Below are positions 6,941 through 62,189 of a stretch of DNA of 64,000 nucleotides, one piece after another. Source of the stretch: Chrysophaeum taylorii (taxonomy: Eukaryota > Sar > Pelagophyceae > Pelagomonadales > Pelagomonadaceae); contig JAQMWT010000389.1 in assembly GCA_029834535.1 (NCBI GenBank), forward strand, positions 124,001 to 188,000, read 5' to 3'. Every line of letters starts with the position of its first letter. Position 1 is the stretch's first letter. The position numbers and the translations under genes are program-made. The notes beneath the pieces are model-generated. The model had not been told where the DNA came from. It saw only the letters and a program-made list of their open reading frames with translations, and did no database searches.

Positions 6941-8656
6941 CTACTTGAGGCGGCGCACCCCCTTGTTGCCGGCGACCATGCCTGGCATGCCGGGGCCGCC
7001 GAGAGCCTGGGAGGTGCGCTTTTGCTGGTCCGCGAGGGAAACGCCCCCCGCGGCGTCGCCGGGCTGCTCGGACTTGGGGTTGCGGACCGTCTCGTCGATC
7101 TGGAGGATGAGGGTAGCGGCTTCGGATGCGGCGAAGAGGGCGTTGGCCTTGTTGAGGGCGGGCTCCCATATTTCGGCCTGGAGGGTGTCGACGACGCCTT
7201 CGACATAGCAGTCGACGCCGAACCAGGTGTGTTGGGCGTCGGCGTGCTTCTTGCGGAGGGCGTTGAGGACGTCGGTGGCGTCGAAACCGGCGTTGAGGGC
7301 GAGCTGCCGCGGAATTATCTCGAGGGCTTGAGCGACCGCCGAAATGACGAGCTGGTCCTTGCCGGCGATCTTGAGGGCGTACTCGCGGAGGTGTCGGGAC
7401 AGTTTCATCTCGACGGCCCCGCCGCCGCCGACAACCTTGGAGTGTTCGAGGCCTCGCTTGGCGATCATGAGAGCGTCGTGGATCGAGCGATGGGACTCTT
7501 CGATAAATTGCTCCGAGCCGCCGCGGAGGACTATGGTGGCAGTCTTGGCCTTGGGACAGCCCGTGAACACGTTGTAGCGCTCGCCGCCAACCTGGCGCTC
7601 CTCGAAGTTCGCGCAAGAACCGAGAATCGAGGGGTTGAGGTCGAGGACCGACGTCTGGACGCGACCACCCGTAGCGCGCGAGACCCGTTCCATGTCGTCG
7701 TAGGTGACGCGGCCGGCGCAGAAAACACCCCGGTCGGCGAAGTACTGGGTCGCGAGGTCGCCGATCGGGAGCTTGGAGAGAACGACCTCGGCGCCCGACT
7801 CGATACACTTCTCGAGCTTTTCGTATATAATCCGCCACTCGGCGTCGACGATCGACTGGTAGTCGTCGGGGTCAGTAATCCGGACCTCGGCGTTTTCTTT
7901 TTCCGACTTGAGTTCGAGCTCGACGTTGAGAAGCAGAGCTTTTGGGTTTTCGAAAAATTTGGGTTGCTGTTCGAAACCCGCGTAAGAAAAAGTTTTCTTA
8001 AAAGCCACGCCGTCGACAAAAAATGAATCCGACACAGATCCCCCCGGGACTTTTTTCACCCCAACGAGCGAGAGGTCCCAGGTGTCGAGAGCGAGGATCG
8101 CGTCGACGACCATCGGGGCGAACAGAGACTTGTGGTTGGCGATGAGCTTCGAGTTGAGCGCCGTCGCCGCTAAGACCTCGAGGCGCTTGCGCTCCTCGGG
8201 GAGCGCGACCGAGATCTCGTGGAGCCGCGCGACCGCGAGCGAGGCCGCCTTCCGGACCCCCCGGGCGATCGTCCGGGGGTGAAGGCCGTCCTCGACGAAA
8301 GGCTTGACTCGGGCAAGAATTTCTCCGGCCAGTAGAACGACCGAAGTTGTTCCGTCGCCGACTTCCGCGTCCTGAGAGGTGGATATTTCGGCGAGAACCT
8401 TGGCAGCGGGATGCGCGATGTCCAGCAGCTTCATGATGGTCGCGCCGTCGTTCGATATGGTCACCTTCTTGCCGTCGTAGAGCAGCTTGTCCATGCCGCG
8501 GGGGCCAAGGGTCGTGCGCACGGCGTCCGCCACCGCCGCGCACGCGTTGATGTTCGAGATCAGCTGCGCCTTGCCCTGCGAGCTGTCGGTCCCCTCGCGG
8601 AGGAGGATGATCCCGGGTTGCATGCCGTGAGCTGTTCGCATCGGTGCCTGAATCAT
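6941..8656 (-). CDS. CCT7: T-complex protein 1 subunit eta (CCT7), cytosolic chaperonin
   Basis: A 571-residue group II chaperonin subunit, full length for the family. [20 protein letters not shown] followed by [19 protein letters not shown] is the eta-subunit N terminus. Further family motifs are [28 protein letters not shown] (nucleotide binding), [12 protein letters not shown] and the C-terminal [15 protein letters not shown]7 is one of eight subunits of the ATP-driven TRiC ring that folds actin, tubulin and WD40 proteins. The ATG at 8656 gives a slightly long N terminus; MQPGIILLR, 11 codons further in, is an alternative. No intron is needed. The divergent TPR gene lies about 150 bases away, across an AT-rich tetranucleotide repeat. 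Confidence 0.95.
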
Positions 8657-8726
8657 TTCTTCGTCGTCGTCGTCGCTCTCTCAACGGTCTGTCTTCTCGA
8701 GAGGAGTATGTATTTATTTAACCGTT

Positions 8727-19106: not shown

Positions 19107-19237
19107 AGCCGCCGCCGCCGCCGCCGCCGCAGCCTCTGGAGACAGACAGACGGTTATGTTCCTGTCTCGTGATCCTTCCTTCTTGTGAATGAAGGCTAAC
19201 TAATAAATAACCCTAGTAGCCTTCCTTCATTTACTCC

Positions 19238-19247
19238 TAAACCCTAG
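19238..19247 (+). promoter_or_regulatory. Telo-box-like TAAACCCTAG upstream of dihydroorotase
   Basis: TAAACCCTAG ends 10 bases before the ATG at 19258, and a second ATAACCCTAG lies at 19207-19216. The position matches telo-box-type promoter motifs seen near three other start codons in this window. Confidence 0.4.
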
Positions 19248-19257
19248 AACAATCAAA

Positions 19258-20444
<1,187 letters not shown>

Positions 20445-30808: not shown

Positions 30809-33800
30809 TTATTGAAGGTCTTTCCTCTTGAAGGTGACGAGGTACTCCGGGTAGGCTTGGGCATCGTGGAATACGACCTAGAAGAACGAATGCATAAAAG
30901 ACAATGTCAAAAAAAAAAGAACGCACGTAGATGGATGGGTCGTCGGTGTCGTCGACGGTGGAGTCGTATAGACGCTGGGACCTCTCGTCGCGGACGTCCG
31001 GCGTGAGGACGTCGCGCGTGCCTCGACAATACTCGCCAACGACGACCCGGCAGAGGAAGACGAACTGATTTCCCTTTGCATTCGGGGTCGCGTAGCAGGT
31101 CTTGCACGAATAGGCGGCGTCGCGCGCGAAGTAGACGCCCTTGCCAAAGGCCGTCGCGTTCTTGCCGCAGAAACTCCTGTTAAAGCCTTGCTGGACGATC
31201 TTTGGGACGGTGGGTTCGTTGGTGCCGTGCCACAGAGGGTACCTCTCGAAGCGGGTCGCCGACCTGTTTGTGGTATTCTTCTCTCGCTCTAAGATTGTTT
31301 TGCGCTTGACAGAAAAGGTTTGCCAGGAGCTCACGTTCTGGACGCGGTCGACGGCGAGAACTCGTGGTTTGTCGTCGCGAAAACCAGAGGCGAGAAATAA
31401 TGCTTCGACGCGGTGTCGCTCGCGGCCGGCGGCCGGTCTGAGCTCGGCGACGAGGGGGTCGTCGACTTTCGTCCAGTTTGGAGGCGTCGCGAGCGACGCG
31501 GCCGCGCCCTCTCCCATGAGTTCGGCGACGCGCTGGATGTCTTCGATCGACGGGATCGTCGTGTAGTCGACCAGCGGAAACCAGCCGGATTTTGTCGACA
31601 AGGCCGCGTCGCGCGACGCGCAGAGAAGCGTCGCGTCGTCGGCGCCGAGGTTATCTGCGGCCGACGGCCGGGAGGCCGCCGAGGGCCGGGAGGTCGCCGA
31701 CACCCGGGTAACTGGCGGGGGAAGCACCTCCGAGCCGAAGGCCCATCCGTCGTCGCGCTGCTTGGTGGTTTGGACGAGCGCGCCAACCCTTAGCACCAAG
31801 AAAGGCTCGCCGCTCGACACGAGATCTTCGGGCGGCATCCGCGGCTCGTCGTCGTCGTCGTCGTCGGACGAAGAGCCCTCAAATAGTTGAAGCGCCGCGC
31901 GAGTACTCTTGAGAGAGGGGTGGCGTCGTCGTCCTACGCGGCGGCGGCGCTCGATTGCCCTCCTGAATCCCGTCTTACAGTTTTGCTGGCGCATCGCGGC
32001 GAGGTCGACGAGGTATCGGTTTCCCGTCGTCGCCGCGTGCGCCTTGCGCTCGGTGCCCGTGCTCGAGACCCGGTCCGAGACGTCGATCTCGACGGTCGCG
32101 GGGCCGCCGGCTTGCCAATACCTGTAGGCCGCCTCGAGGTCGGCGGCCACGCTGCCCCCGTACTCGACCCAATTCCCGGGCTGCGCCGTCATCGAGGCGT
32201 CGTGAGACGCGATTCGGCACTCGCTCTCTTGCCAATACCAGCCGACCGACTCCAACAGCAGCAGCCGGTTCCTCAAGAGAGTCGCGTCGTCGAGTTTCCC
32301 GCCGCCGCCGCCGCCGCCGGTGCCGCCGCCGCCGCAAAGAGACGACTTGTAGAAGGGAGGCTCGTAGTCTCGGGTAACGCGAACCATATTCACGATAGAC
32401 CTTTGGACCTCCTCGAGCTCGCGCTTGATGCGCATGATTTTGCGGTGCTGTTTGTACGAGTGCGCGCACGAGAGACAGAGAATCGTTAGGATTCCAACGA
32501 ACACGACGGGCGCGACGATCCGGCTGATTCGGCGCCGTCGGCGCGTCTTAGCCCCCTCCTCCTCCGCGCTCCCGCACGCGTCGCCGATCGTCTCGGCGAA
32601 GCCAGAGCGGATCGATGCGTCGACGGGAGCCGCGCCCAATGCCACCATTGGCTCGATAACCTTGTCGTCTCCGTACAGCCACCGGACGTACTCGAGGCCG
32701 TCGGATATTTCGGTCTGGTCGTCGCACCGGCCGTCGACGTCCCTCGACGGTACCGCAACCACGAAACTCACGGAGATCGGCCAGCAGGAGGACGACTCCG
32801 ACTCGAGAAGATCGGTCTTGTCTGTCAGCACGGAGATTGTCTCGGTGAGATACTCCACCTCGAGGCACGTAAGATTTTGCGTGGAGGCGTTCCCGAGCTT
32901 GGCAGTCGCGACGGAGATGCTTCCGAGGTTCGTCACGTACCCCAGCGCGCCCCGGAAGTACTGGACGGCGGCCTCGACGGTCGAATCCGAGTCGCGCCAC
33001 AGCGTCGTCGCGTTTCCGAGGGTGACGAGCGACGGCTCGATTAATGACGGTTCGGCCGACGCGAGAGCGCGAGTGAAGGCCCACGTAATCTCCGAGTAGT
33101 CCGACCTGCCGACGGAGATGATATCGAGCGAAGGCAAAGCGACCGACGGATTCAGCGCCGCGATCTTCGGGTCGTCCCATCGTCGCACCCGCCCCGCATA
33201 TATCTCCGCGAGTACCGACAGCGACAACGTGATCATCATCCCGTTTTTGCTAGCGGTGGTGGCGGCGGCGTTGTTAGATCCGCCGCCGCCGTCGTCGTCG
33301 AGATTGTAGACGACCGCGACGCCCGCAACAAAGAGCGGGGCGGCGTAGTAGGGTGCCCCCGGCATCGGGGTAATGACCTCGCGCAGAGCCCGCGACGTGG
33401 TGACCTTGACCTCGAACAACAACGTGTCGTTGTGCCAGATCATTTCGGCGTCCCGCGGCGCGTACGGGACGTTCCGGACCTCGACGTCCGCGCGAACACC
33501 CTTGTAGGCGTCGGCATACGTGTTGAAGAGACCGAGAGCGATCTCGGGGACGCTCACGTCGACCGCGCTGCTGAGGGACGAGGCCTGCTGCCCGGTGGTG
33601 GTGGTCCACGCCGGCGTGCCGTCGGCGCACAAGACGTCGAGGAAAAGCCGCTCCAAAACGCCTTCGAAGATCACTTCTGGCAACCGCGAAAAGCCGAGTC
33701 TCTTCTGCGTCGACGCAACCGTCGGGGACGTGTAGAACCATTCCAAAAACTCCAAGGTCGCCGTGCGCGTCGCGCAGTCCCGCACCTGCTCCTCCTTCCG

Positions 33801-34679
33801 GAGCACGAAATACGTCAGTCCGCTCGCCGGCCAAGCGGTCGACGACGAGGCGTCTACGATGTCGGCCGTGAGCCGCTCGTTTTCCAAAAGCAGTCCCGAG
33901 AGCTCGGCGAGGGCAAACTCGACGCTCTCCACCGACGCCTCGACCGTCTCGCCGGCCCTGTTGATCATTTTCGCGTACGTCACGCCGCGCTCCGCGGCCT
34001 CGCTCAGCACCGAATATCCTATCGAGAACGGCTCGCTCAGCACGGCCGCCGCCACGCCGTCGTTCCGGTACGCCGTGATGTACTCTCCGTCCTCCCAAAC
34101 ACTCTCCCAGACCTCGGGATTCGAGGAATTCCCGACAATCGCCGCGAAATCGCCGCTGAACGACGAGAGCGCCTTGGTCCATATCTCCGTCGTGCCCGAA
34201 CCGTCGCTCCTGACGACGACGACTATTCGTTCCGACGGCAGCGTCGCCTCGGGGTTGGTTGTCGCGATATCCGCGTCGTTCCACCGCGTGATGTTCCCCA
34301 TGAATATGCGCGCGAGGGTCTCGCGCGAGAAGACGAGCTGCTGATCGCTCGCGCTCTCTCCGACGACCGGCACGACCGCGGTCGCCGCGCTCGGGTACAT
34401 CTGCAGGTCTGCGTATTCAGCGTAATCATCCTCGGACAACAAACTGTCCGAACCCACGAAATCCACCACCCGATCTGGGTCCTCGCCCTTTATAGCCATC
34501 AACCCCGTCGTCGACCCCGTGCTCTCGTAGCTCACCCTGTCCTCGGGCGCCGTGTAATAGTACGCGAACGCCACTTCCTCGTACAGCTGGGCGGGAAGCG
34601 ACGCCCCGGCACCCCTCACATCGATCCCCGAGACCAACCCCGAGCCCACCACCAGCCCTCGAATCTTTGACCACATCAT
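30809..34679 (-). CDS. Predicted transmembrane ADP-ribosyltransferase: two PstS-like ectodomains, TM, WWE, SH3-like, PARP
   Basis: Two exons (34679-30927 and 30877-30809) give a 1273-residue protein. A short signal peptide precedes RGAGASLPAQLYEE, the start of a PstS-like fold (about 20-355, with ITRWNDADIA and VVRSDGSGTTEIW). A second, more diverged PstS-like domain follows (about 375-700, with VRRWDDPKIAALNP). One membrane span lies at about 721-739, then a basic/coiled stop. A WWE domain (about 811-911: VGWYWQESECRI, NWVEYGG, NRYLVDLAAMRQQN) and an SH3-like stretch (about 961-1038: GALVQTTKQRDDGWAFGS, SGWFPL) lead to a PARP catalytic domain (about 1071-1273). His1151 (LWHGTNEPTVP), Tyr1183 (GKGVYFARDA) and Leu1264 (AYPEYLVTF) make an H-Y-L triad, typical of mono-ADP-ribosyltransferases. 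The architecture implies ligand binding outside the cell or in a vesicle lumen and ADP-ribosylation in the cytosol. The ligand is unknown; phosphate is a guess from the fold. Confidence 0.8.
30878..30926 (-). other. 49-bp spliceosomal intron in the PARP domain
   Basis: On the minus strand the intron runs from GTGCGTTC to TTCTTCTAG. Splicing joins DPSIY to VVFHDAQAYPEYLVTF in phase 0 and restores the end of the PARP fold. Without splicing the frame leaves the family completely. Confidence 0.85.
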
Positions 34680-61593: not shown

Positions 61594-61833
61594 ATTCCAG
61601 GCTATCTATCTATCCAACGGTGCCACTGGAGAATGGCATTGACGTCGGCTTGGGAGAGAGGGGCAACGTCGACGAGGCAAACGTGCTCGGCAGGTCGCGG
61701 CGCAGGGAGCTTCGACGGCGGGGAACAACGGTTTTTGATCGGCTGGCCAGGGCTTCGGTCTGCTCTCGCTTGGGCTCTCGATCATTTGGCAGCCCAAGGT
61801 CAACAAGGCGCGTGCGAGAGGTTTGCACTCGAG
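61594..61833. other. Spacer before the minisatellite
   Basis: No gene recognised. It includes an inverted partial copy of the minisatellite unit (GTGCGAGAGGTT at about 61813-61824). Confidence 0.4.
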
Positions 61834-62112
61834 CACGGAGAACCTCTCGCACGGAGAACCTCTCGCACGGAGAACCTCTCGCACGGAGAACCTCTCGCAC
61901 GGAGAACCTCTCGCACGGAGAACCTCTCGCACGGAGAACCTCTCGCACGGAGAACCTCTCGCACGGAGAACCTCTCGCACGGAGAACCTCTCGCACGGAG
62001 AACCTCTCGCACGGAGAACCTCTCGCACGGAGAACCTCTCGCACGGAGAACCTCTCGCACGGAGTACCTCTCGCTCGGAGAACCTCTCGCACGGAGAACC
62101 TCTCGCACGGAG
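61834..62112. repeat. 16-bp minisatellite, about 17 units, open in all frames
   Basis: Unit GCACGGAGAACCTCTC repeated about 17 times, nearly perfect, with a few variants at 62055-62090. Because 16 is not a multiple of 3, each frame reads the same 16-residue cycle per 48 bp (plus: HGEPLARRTSRTENLS; minus: REVLRARGSPCERFSV), with no stop in any of the six frames. Confidence 0.98.
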
Positions 62113-62189
62113 ACGGAGGTGCGGTTTTCGCGCGGGGGAATAATTTTTTTTTGCCGATGGCAGGTTGACCACGCGTCGGTAGCTCACGA

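Follow-up and report, generated by a model that had tools for sequence, protein, structure and literature searches.

A candidate receptor ADP-ribosyltransferase with a PstS-like ectodomain in the alga Chrysophaeum taylorii

The stretch of DNA analysed here, hereafter the window, comprises 64,000 nucleotides of Chrysophaeum taylorii contig JAQMWT010000389.1 (positions 124,001 to 188,000; contig C389 of a 70.8-Mb genome in 697 contigs). The organism is photosynthetic, with 84 light-harvesting matches in its genome. The window contains a minus-strand gene (34679-30809) whose two exons, from an ATG at 34679 to a TAA stop, encode a protein of 1273 amino acids (aa). The domain order is PstS domain 1, a diverged PstS-like domain 2, a membrane span, WWE, an SH3-like region and PARP, which confirms the receptor-like PARP gene reported in a preliminary description of the window. 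The DNA itself reads as one gene with this order of domains, with phosphate-site residues in domain 1 and with a PARP that has the catalytic His and Tyr and a third residue other than Glu. The product is probably a single-pass enzyme-linked membrane receptor, or receptor PARP, in which a ligand outside the cell would gate mono-ADP-ribosylation inside. We favor this interpretation because a class C G protein-coupled receptor (GPCR), a receptor by family, carries this tandem PstS ectodomain too, and because domain 1 and PARP are the regions most conserved relative to a paralog, C673.

The gene model was evaluated using simulation, base composition and the paralog. The stop-to-stop frame is 1360 codons long. 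Across 40 composition-matched windows simulated with a first-order Markov model, the longest frame was 325 aa on average and 453 at most, one third of the observed length. GC content at third codon positions (GC3) is even along the gene, at 0.75-0.90. Splicing yields a complete PARP ending, YPEYLVTF, and C673 ends alike without an intron. Indeed, C673 is uninterrupted at the intron site, encoding AIFVTYHDAQAYPEYLV straight through. This paralog, on another contig, has the same domain order in one 1257-codon frame, which ruled out split genes or a chimera. Together with C673, a larger set of genes combining the span with the WWE/SH3-like/PARP module bears out the fused architecture as that of one real gene.

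Profile searches identified binding-protein folds across residues ~20-700, as had been proposed. Specifically, in a Pfam search of residues 1-1252, PBP_like_2 matched in two stretches (E 2.1e-33), above the curated cut-off. The NCBIfam PstS profile TIGR00975 scored 267.2 bits over the whole protein, summed over two stretches, against a cut-off of 205; domain 1 alone scored 204.8 bits, and 205 when taken with its neighbors. Domain 2 alone scored 27.7 bits with PBP_like_2 (cut-off 27), matched solved PstS chains at E 1.1e-12 and shared 27% identity with domain 1 (E 5e-14).

The phosphate site was compared with that of Escherichia coli PstS, which we take to be T10, F11, S38, D56, R135, D137, S139, G140 and T141, with F11 presumably binding phosphate by its backbone. 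The residues at these numbers were verified by counting along the chain. The corresponding residues of domain 1 are S27, L28, S56, D78, R157, D159, S161, G162 and T163, respectively. Thus, domain 1 keeps the E. coli residues except for T10S and F11L, and the nine letters are identical in domain 1 of C673. Because these residues are kept, phosphate is a sound guess for the ligand of domain 1. Domain 2 keeps R525, D527 and S529 of the second loop (E. coli R135, D137 and S139) and has A, A, E and I in place of S38, D56, G140 and T141, as well as T10S and F11V. Based on these losses, each chain likely has a single functional phosphate site rather than two. The two modules previously described as tandem phosphate-binding domains are therefore both PstS-like but not equivalent, and phosphate is retained as the putative ligand of domain 1 only.

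We also considered where the PstS-like modules might belong. A six-frame search of the genome for the PstC permease gave 0 matches, while 14 of 14 control genomes gave a signal, 12 of them over the cut-off. Accordingly, this search does not link the PstS-fold domain to transport, and an ATP-binding cassette transporter component was ruled out on the lack of a PstC match. No recent donor of PstS was recognizable among the best 80 of 571 bacterial and archaeal relatives, which were 29-36% identical. A first alignment-based search of the same collection of genome contigs, with another alignment, found no relatives, nor did searches of viral contigs using the whole protein and using an alignment of the cytosolic module.

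Four genes of this alga match PstS-type profiles: the window gene, C673, C695 and C314. In C695 (L045:1232-5500), the tandem PstS sits on a class C GPCR (7tm_3, E 8e-31), making this gene a candidate phosphate-sensing GPCR. C314 (L046:1060-2802) has a single PstS, a signal-peptide-like start, a C-terminal span and no recognized output domain; it is a possible co-receptor. A quick tree of domain 1, calculated using 29 of the 80 bacterial and archaeal rows plus E. coli, placed the window gene, C673 and C695 in one clade (Shimodaira-Hasegawa-like approximate likelihood ratio test, SH-aLRT, 99; no bootstrap), with C314 separate on a long branch. This suggests, without proving, one PstS source common to the GPCR and PARP outputs.

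At the other end of the protein, the Pfam PARP profile matched at E 3.7e-20 (residues 1-1252), above the curated cut-off, and the spliced C-terminus aligned with PARP14 at E 1.3e-37. The catalytic triad is H1151 (WHGT), Y1183 (GVYF) and I1250 (SIYV). The preliminary description had an H-Y-L triad, of which the His and Tyr stand; the third residue is Ile because SIYV aligns with SLFV of PARP14, placing I1250 opposite the PARP14 Leu. Glu as the third triad residue is the mark of poly-ADP-ribosylating PARPs, and other residues indicate mono-transferases. The third residue was never Glu in the 18 PARP rows of the family, and the His was kept in 16 of them. The window PARP is thus a predicted mono-ADP-ribosyltransferase, H-Y-I and H-Y-L predicting alike. 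The PARP profile matched 6 of 13 family rows at E ≤ 1; several rows stop before or within PARP because of a locus end or an intron.

Between span and PARP, the WWE domain was recovered as described, with PF02825 scoring 29 bits in the Pfam search (cut-off 21.1; E 1.5e-6). WWE matched 12 of the 13 family rows at E ≤ 1, and its W, Y, Q and R columns were invariant across five aligned rows. The SH3-like domain is backed via paralogs: SH3_2 matched 5 of the 13 family rows (best E 1.4e-4), and the window region aligns with these SH3_2-matching regions, sharing a DGWAFG/GWFP core. No SH3 profile matched the window protein directly, and the region alone reached a best E of 0.28, a chance level, against solved structures.

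The family survey covered this genome, in which 18 related PARP loci were found; the window gene is one of these rather than a lone case. C673 is 59% identical to the window protein in domain 1, 36% in domain 2, 23% around the span, 34% in WWE, 45% in the SH3-like region and 52% in PARP. In thirteen loci, including the window gene, a single open frame covers a span together with the complete or partial PARP module: C389, C673, C242, C129, C125, C149, C370, C379, C323 (three copies), C606 and C322. Among these, C389 completes its PARP in exon 2 (last 21 residues), the C149 frame ends past the His with the remainder in the next exon, and two of the three C323 copies were read only from the span onward. 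In C388 and C439a, pieces of ectodomain, span and PARP are spread over exons, and C439b, C439c and C480 were partially covered. The relatives appear to be under constraint: in the near pair C129/C125, the one pair evaluated and one that excludes the window gene, the ratio of nonsynonymous to synonymous substitution rates (Ka/Ks) was 0.34 for the ectodomain and 0.20 for the cytosolic part. A tree of the PARP rows separated the receptor PARPs, along with C495, from the PARP1/2-like C360 and C552 (100/99). The 15 rows without PstS grouped together (93/88), and the window gene, C673, C480 and C495 were left at the base with no resolved order.

C323 and C439 each contain a cluster of three receptor PARP genes, those of C439 being partially covered. 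In C323, the three hardly differ over the PARP region, which suggests a recent local expansion. C606 (L054:40-4644) and C322 (L058:2621-4720), with the PARP His lost (LYLEP and FRGT, respectively), are likely pseudo-enzyme receptors.

The ectodomains of the other receptor PARPs are of another kind. Besides C389 and C673, 10 of the 11 single-frame loci matched 5_nucleotid_C, and no ectodomain was identified in C322. In all six loci scanned whole or nearly whole using Pfam (C242, C129, C125, C370, C379 and C323a), 5_nucleotid_C was accompanied by ANF_receptor. Receptor-PARP loci account for 14 of the 18 5_nucleotid_C matches in the genome: ten from the single-frame loci, one from C388 and three from C439. 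Active 5'-nucleotidases carry DAGD and GNHEFD. In a partial motif scan, in which several patterns went unmatched, the receptor PARPs checked had DLGG, DMGG, DSGG or DAGN, and forms such as NSRDF or SPRDF, and Metallophos had no match in the Pfam scans. With altered metal-site motifs and no Metallophos match, the 5'-nucleotidase-like part looks catalytically dead. The receptor PARPs that combine it with ANF (L047-L052: C242, C129, C125, C370, C379 and C323) are possible sensors of nucleotides or organic phosphate. For comparison, the genome has three 7tm_3 matches versus at least 13 receptor PARPs.

The window protein contains a single strong hydrophobic stretch, consistent with the one transmembrane span previously described. 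Hydrophobic, signal-peptide-like starts were found in four paralogs (C129, C125, C323a and C606), as judged by eye and hydropathy rather than by a predictor. From these starts, and because PARP needs cytosolic NAD+, we infer that the ectodomain is outside and PARP in the cytosol.

The ligand, gating and substrates, like the topology, are inferred, and the receptor PARP may operate as follows. The N-terminal half would lie outside the cell, or in a compartment continuous with the outside, where PstS domain 1 would bind inorganic phosphate or a closely related oxyanion. Domain 2, having lost much of its site, may be a structural or dimerization module. By analogy with receptor guanylyl cyclases, closure of the Venus-flytrap clamp on its ligand would shift both the span and its juxtamembrane stretch, thereby changing PARP activity. 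The cytosolic PARP would then mono-ADP-ribosylate itself or its neighbors using NAD+. WWE may recognize ADP-ribose marks carried by the receptor itself or by a substrate, the SH3-like region may recruit partners, and macrodomain proteins, for which the genome has three matches, could read or erase the mark.

Several observations weigh against this interpretation. The protein starts with MMWSKIRGLVVGSGLVSGIDVRG, a poor signal peptide, and the signal peptide asserted in the preliminary description is a weak candidate. The C673 frame has no signal peptide beside its PstS domain; a search of the two PstS-type genes for a signal-peptide exon further upstream yielded many mechanical candidates, none of them convincing. 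The flanks of the span are both basic (net +4 before and +3 after), such that the positive-inside rule gives no orientation for the window member. Of 12 members, seven had higher net charge on the C-side, one was tied and four, including the window protein, were of the opposite sense. In the domain 1 tree, the branches of C695 and C314 are long and the composition of the window gene, C673 and C695 is skewed, so that the grouping of these three could be inflated. The PARP tree joins the two PstS types into no single clade. Finally, the PARP His is lost in C606 and C322, as is the Tyr in C322.

The weak and undefined N-terminal targeting signal is compatible with a protein of an intracellular membrane (endoplasmic reticulum (ER), plastid envelope or vacuole), in which PstS would read lumenal phosphate and PARP would be cytosolic, the same coupling being placed elsewhere. 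The known transmembrane PARP, PARP16, is in the ER according to excerpts of PMC10450202. The signal-peptide-like starts of four paralogs and the presence of the same ectodomain on a 7tm_3 receptor argue against this location, although both are compatible with an inner membrane too; overall, we consider it rather unlikely. A role without phosphate sensing deserves some weight, although we think it unlikely: the PARP output would be real and the PstS modules would be generic Venus-flytrap folds for another ligand (organic phosphate, an amino acid or a peptide), or would serve dimerization only. The partial loss of the domain 2 site is consistent with such a role, as are the sister receptors, whose 5'-nucleotidase-like and ANF modules point to a probable diversity of ligands across the class. 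However, domain 1 of both the window protein and C673 keeps S38, D56, R135, D137, S139, G140 and T141, with Ser in place of T10.

With His missing from 2 of 18 PARPs, some family members may be scaffolds, and human PARP9, of clade 3, is described as apparently inactive in excerpts of PMC4245714. That the window protein is itself a pseudo-receptor or scaffold, with a catalytically weak PARP acting as an NAD+- or ADP-ribose-binding adaptor, is nevertheless improbable: H1151, Y1183 and the neighboring motifs are preserved, in close alignment with PARP14/15. An artefact of gene model or assembly, in which a bacterial-type pstS and an algal PARP gene were joined in silico, has a negligible chance of being correct, and nothing was found in its favor. 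The 1360-codon frame is unbroken with even GC3, and the ectodomain occurs on a GPCR as well; C673, which repeats this domain order on a separate contig, makes an artefact unlikely at the DNA level.

The preliminary interpretation is partly supported; the direct coupling of an extracellular ligand to mono-ADP-ribosylation that it suggests is putative. More tentatively, the receptor PARPs may constitute a new class of enzyme-linked receptor, with some 13 or more transmembrane ADP-ribosyltransferases whose Venus-flytrap ectodomains have been swapped with class C GPCRs and which could couple outside phosphorus status directly to mono-ADP-ribosylation inside the cell. PstS would serve for phosphate, and the apparently dead 5'-nucleotidase with ANF perhaps for nucleotides or organic phosphate. 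If this is true, ADP-ribosylation is a new output chemistry for membrane receptors, and the window gene is a concrete candidate for the sensing of outside phosphate by phytoplankton. Phosphate limits ocean productivity.

Table 1. Features of the receptor PARP gene (window coordinates). KD, Kyte-Doolittle hydropathy.
Feature	Position	Strand	Details
Whole coding region, ATG to TAA	30809..34679	-	1273 aa, two exons
Exon 1	34679-30927	-	1251 full codons
Intron, GT-AG, 49 nt (GTGCGT...TTCTAG)	30878..30926	-	No counterpart in paralog C673
Exon 2, including TAA	30877-30809	-	22 codons; residues 1252-1273 map to 30877-30812
N-terminus, residues 1-18, weak signal-peptide-like stretch	34626..34679	-	Best 11-residue KD 1.99
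PstS domain 1, residues 21-354	33618..34619	-	Profile matches; E. coli PstS alignment over 21-354
PstS-like domain 2, residues 365-716	32532..33587	-	PBP_like_2, solved PstS chains
Membrane span, residues 721-739	32463..32519	-	Single strong hydrophobic stretch, KD 2.61
WWE domain, residues 834-911	31947..32180	-	Pfam PF02825
SH3-like region, residues ~955-1042 (DGWAFG...GWFP)	31554..31817	-	Homology to SH3_2-matching paralogs
PARP catalytic region, residues 1062-1273, intron-interrupted; H1151, Y1183, I1250	30812..31496	-	Pfam, PARP14 alignment

Elsewhere in the window, a tandem array occupies 61833-62113 (16-base unit, 17.6 copies, 98% matches). A chaperonin gene (6944-8680; Cpn60_TCP1) and an amidohydrolase gene that by eye resembles dihydroorotase (19207-20313) are ordinary neighbors.

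The window protein shares with bacterial PstS its membership in the profiles (TIGR00975, PF12849) and the phosphate-site residues of domain 1. It differs in being tandem, membrane-anchored and fused to a cytosolic enzyme, in a genome without a PstC match. The closest solved catalytic domains are those of PARP14, PARP15 and PARP10 of clade 3 (E 1.3e-37 to 1e-35), which likewise have WWE upstream of PARP and a third triad residue other than Glu. In contrast to these, the window protein has no macrodomain match and has a receptor-like N-terminal half, a span and an SH3-like region between WWE and PARP. PARP16 also combines PARP with a membrane span, but its span is C-terminal to the catalytic domain, whereas that of the window protein precedes WWE and PARP; a PARP16-type tail anchor was ruled out by this domain order.

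Excerpts of PMC4245714 describe a sponge clade 3 PARP with an N-terminal transmembrane domain followed by PARP, and name ZnF-RBZ, H_lectin and a transmembrane domain in rhizarian clade 3 PARPs. The excerpts of PMC4245714 and PMC10450202 describe no ligand-binding receptor design for transmembrane PARPs. In the open-access literature, covered as titles, the starts of abstracts and part of the long result lists, neither a PARP receptor with a binding-protein ectodomain nor any receptor class with an ADP-ribosyltransferase output was found; the architecture may have been noticed before. As excerpted, a 2010 survey reported no PARPs in diatoms and listed Aureococcus among the species without PARP (PMC2964712), and a 2014 survey (PMC4245714) reported some PARPs from one diatom and one brown alga. 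The receptor PARP genes thus occur in an alga of a kind thought to be PARP-poor.

Some diatom class C GPCRs have PBP and 5-nucleotide-C domains, according to excerpts of PMC3727952. The sister receptor PARPs carry the same types of domain, but the GPCRs have seven spans rather than one span and a PARP, and the window protein has no 7tm_3. Receptor guanylyl cyclases are built as ANF_receptor, transmembrane span, kinase homology region and cyclase. The receptor PARPs resemble these in having a Venus-flytrap ectodomain, one span and an enzyme output, and the sister receptor PARPs match ANF_receptor itself; the output is cyclic GMP in the cyclases versus ADP-ribosylation in the receptor PARPs. The receptor PARP would be set apart by its output and would otherwise belong with the single-pass enzyme-linked receptors, if these are counted as one kind.

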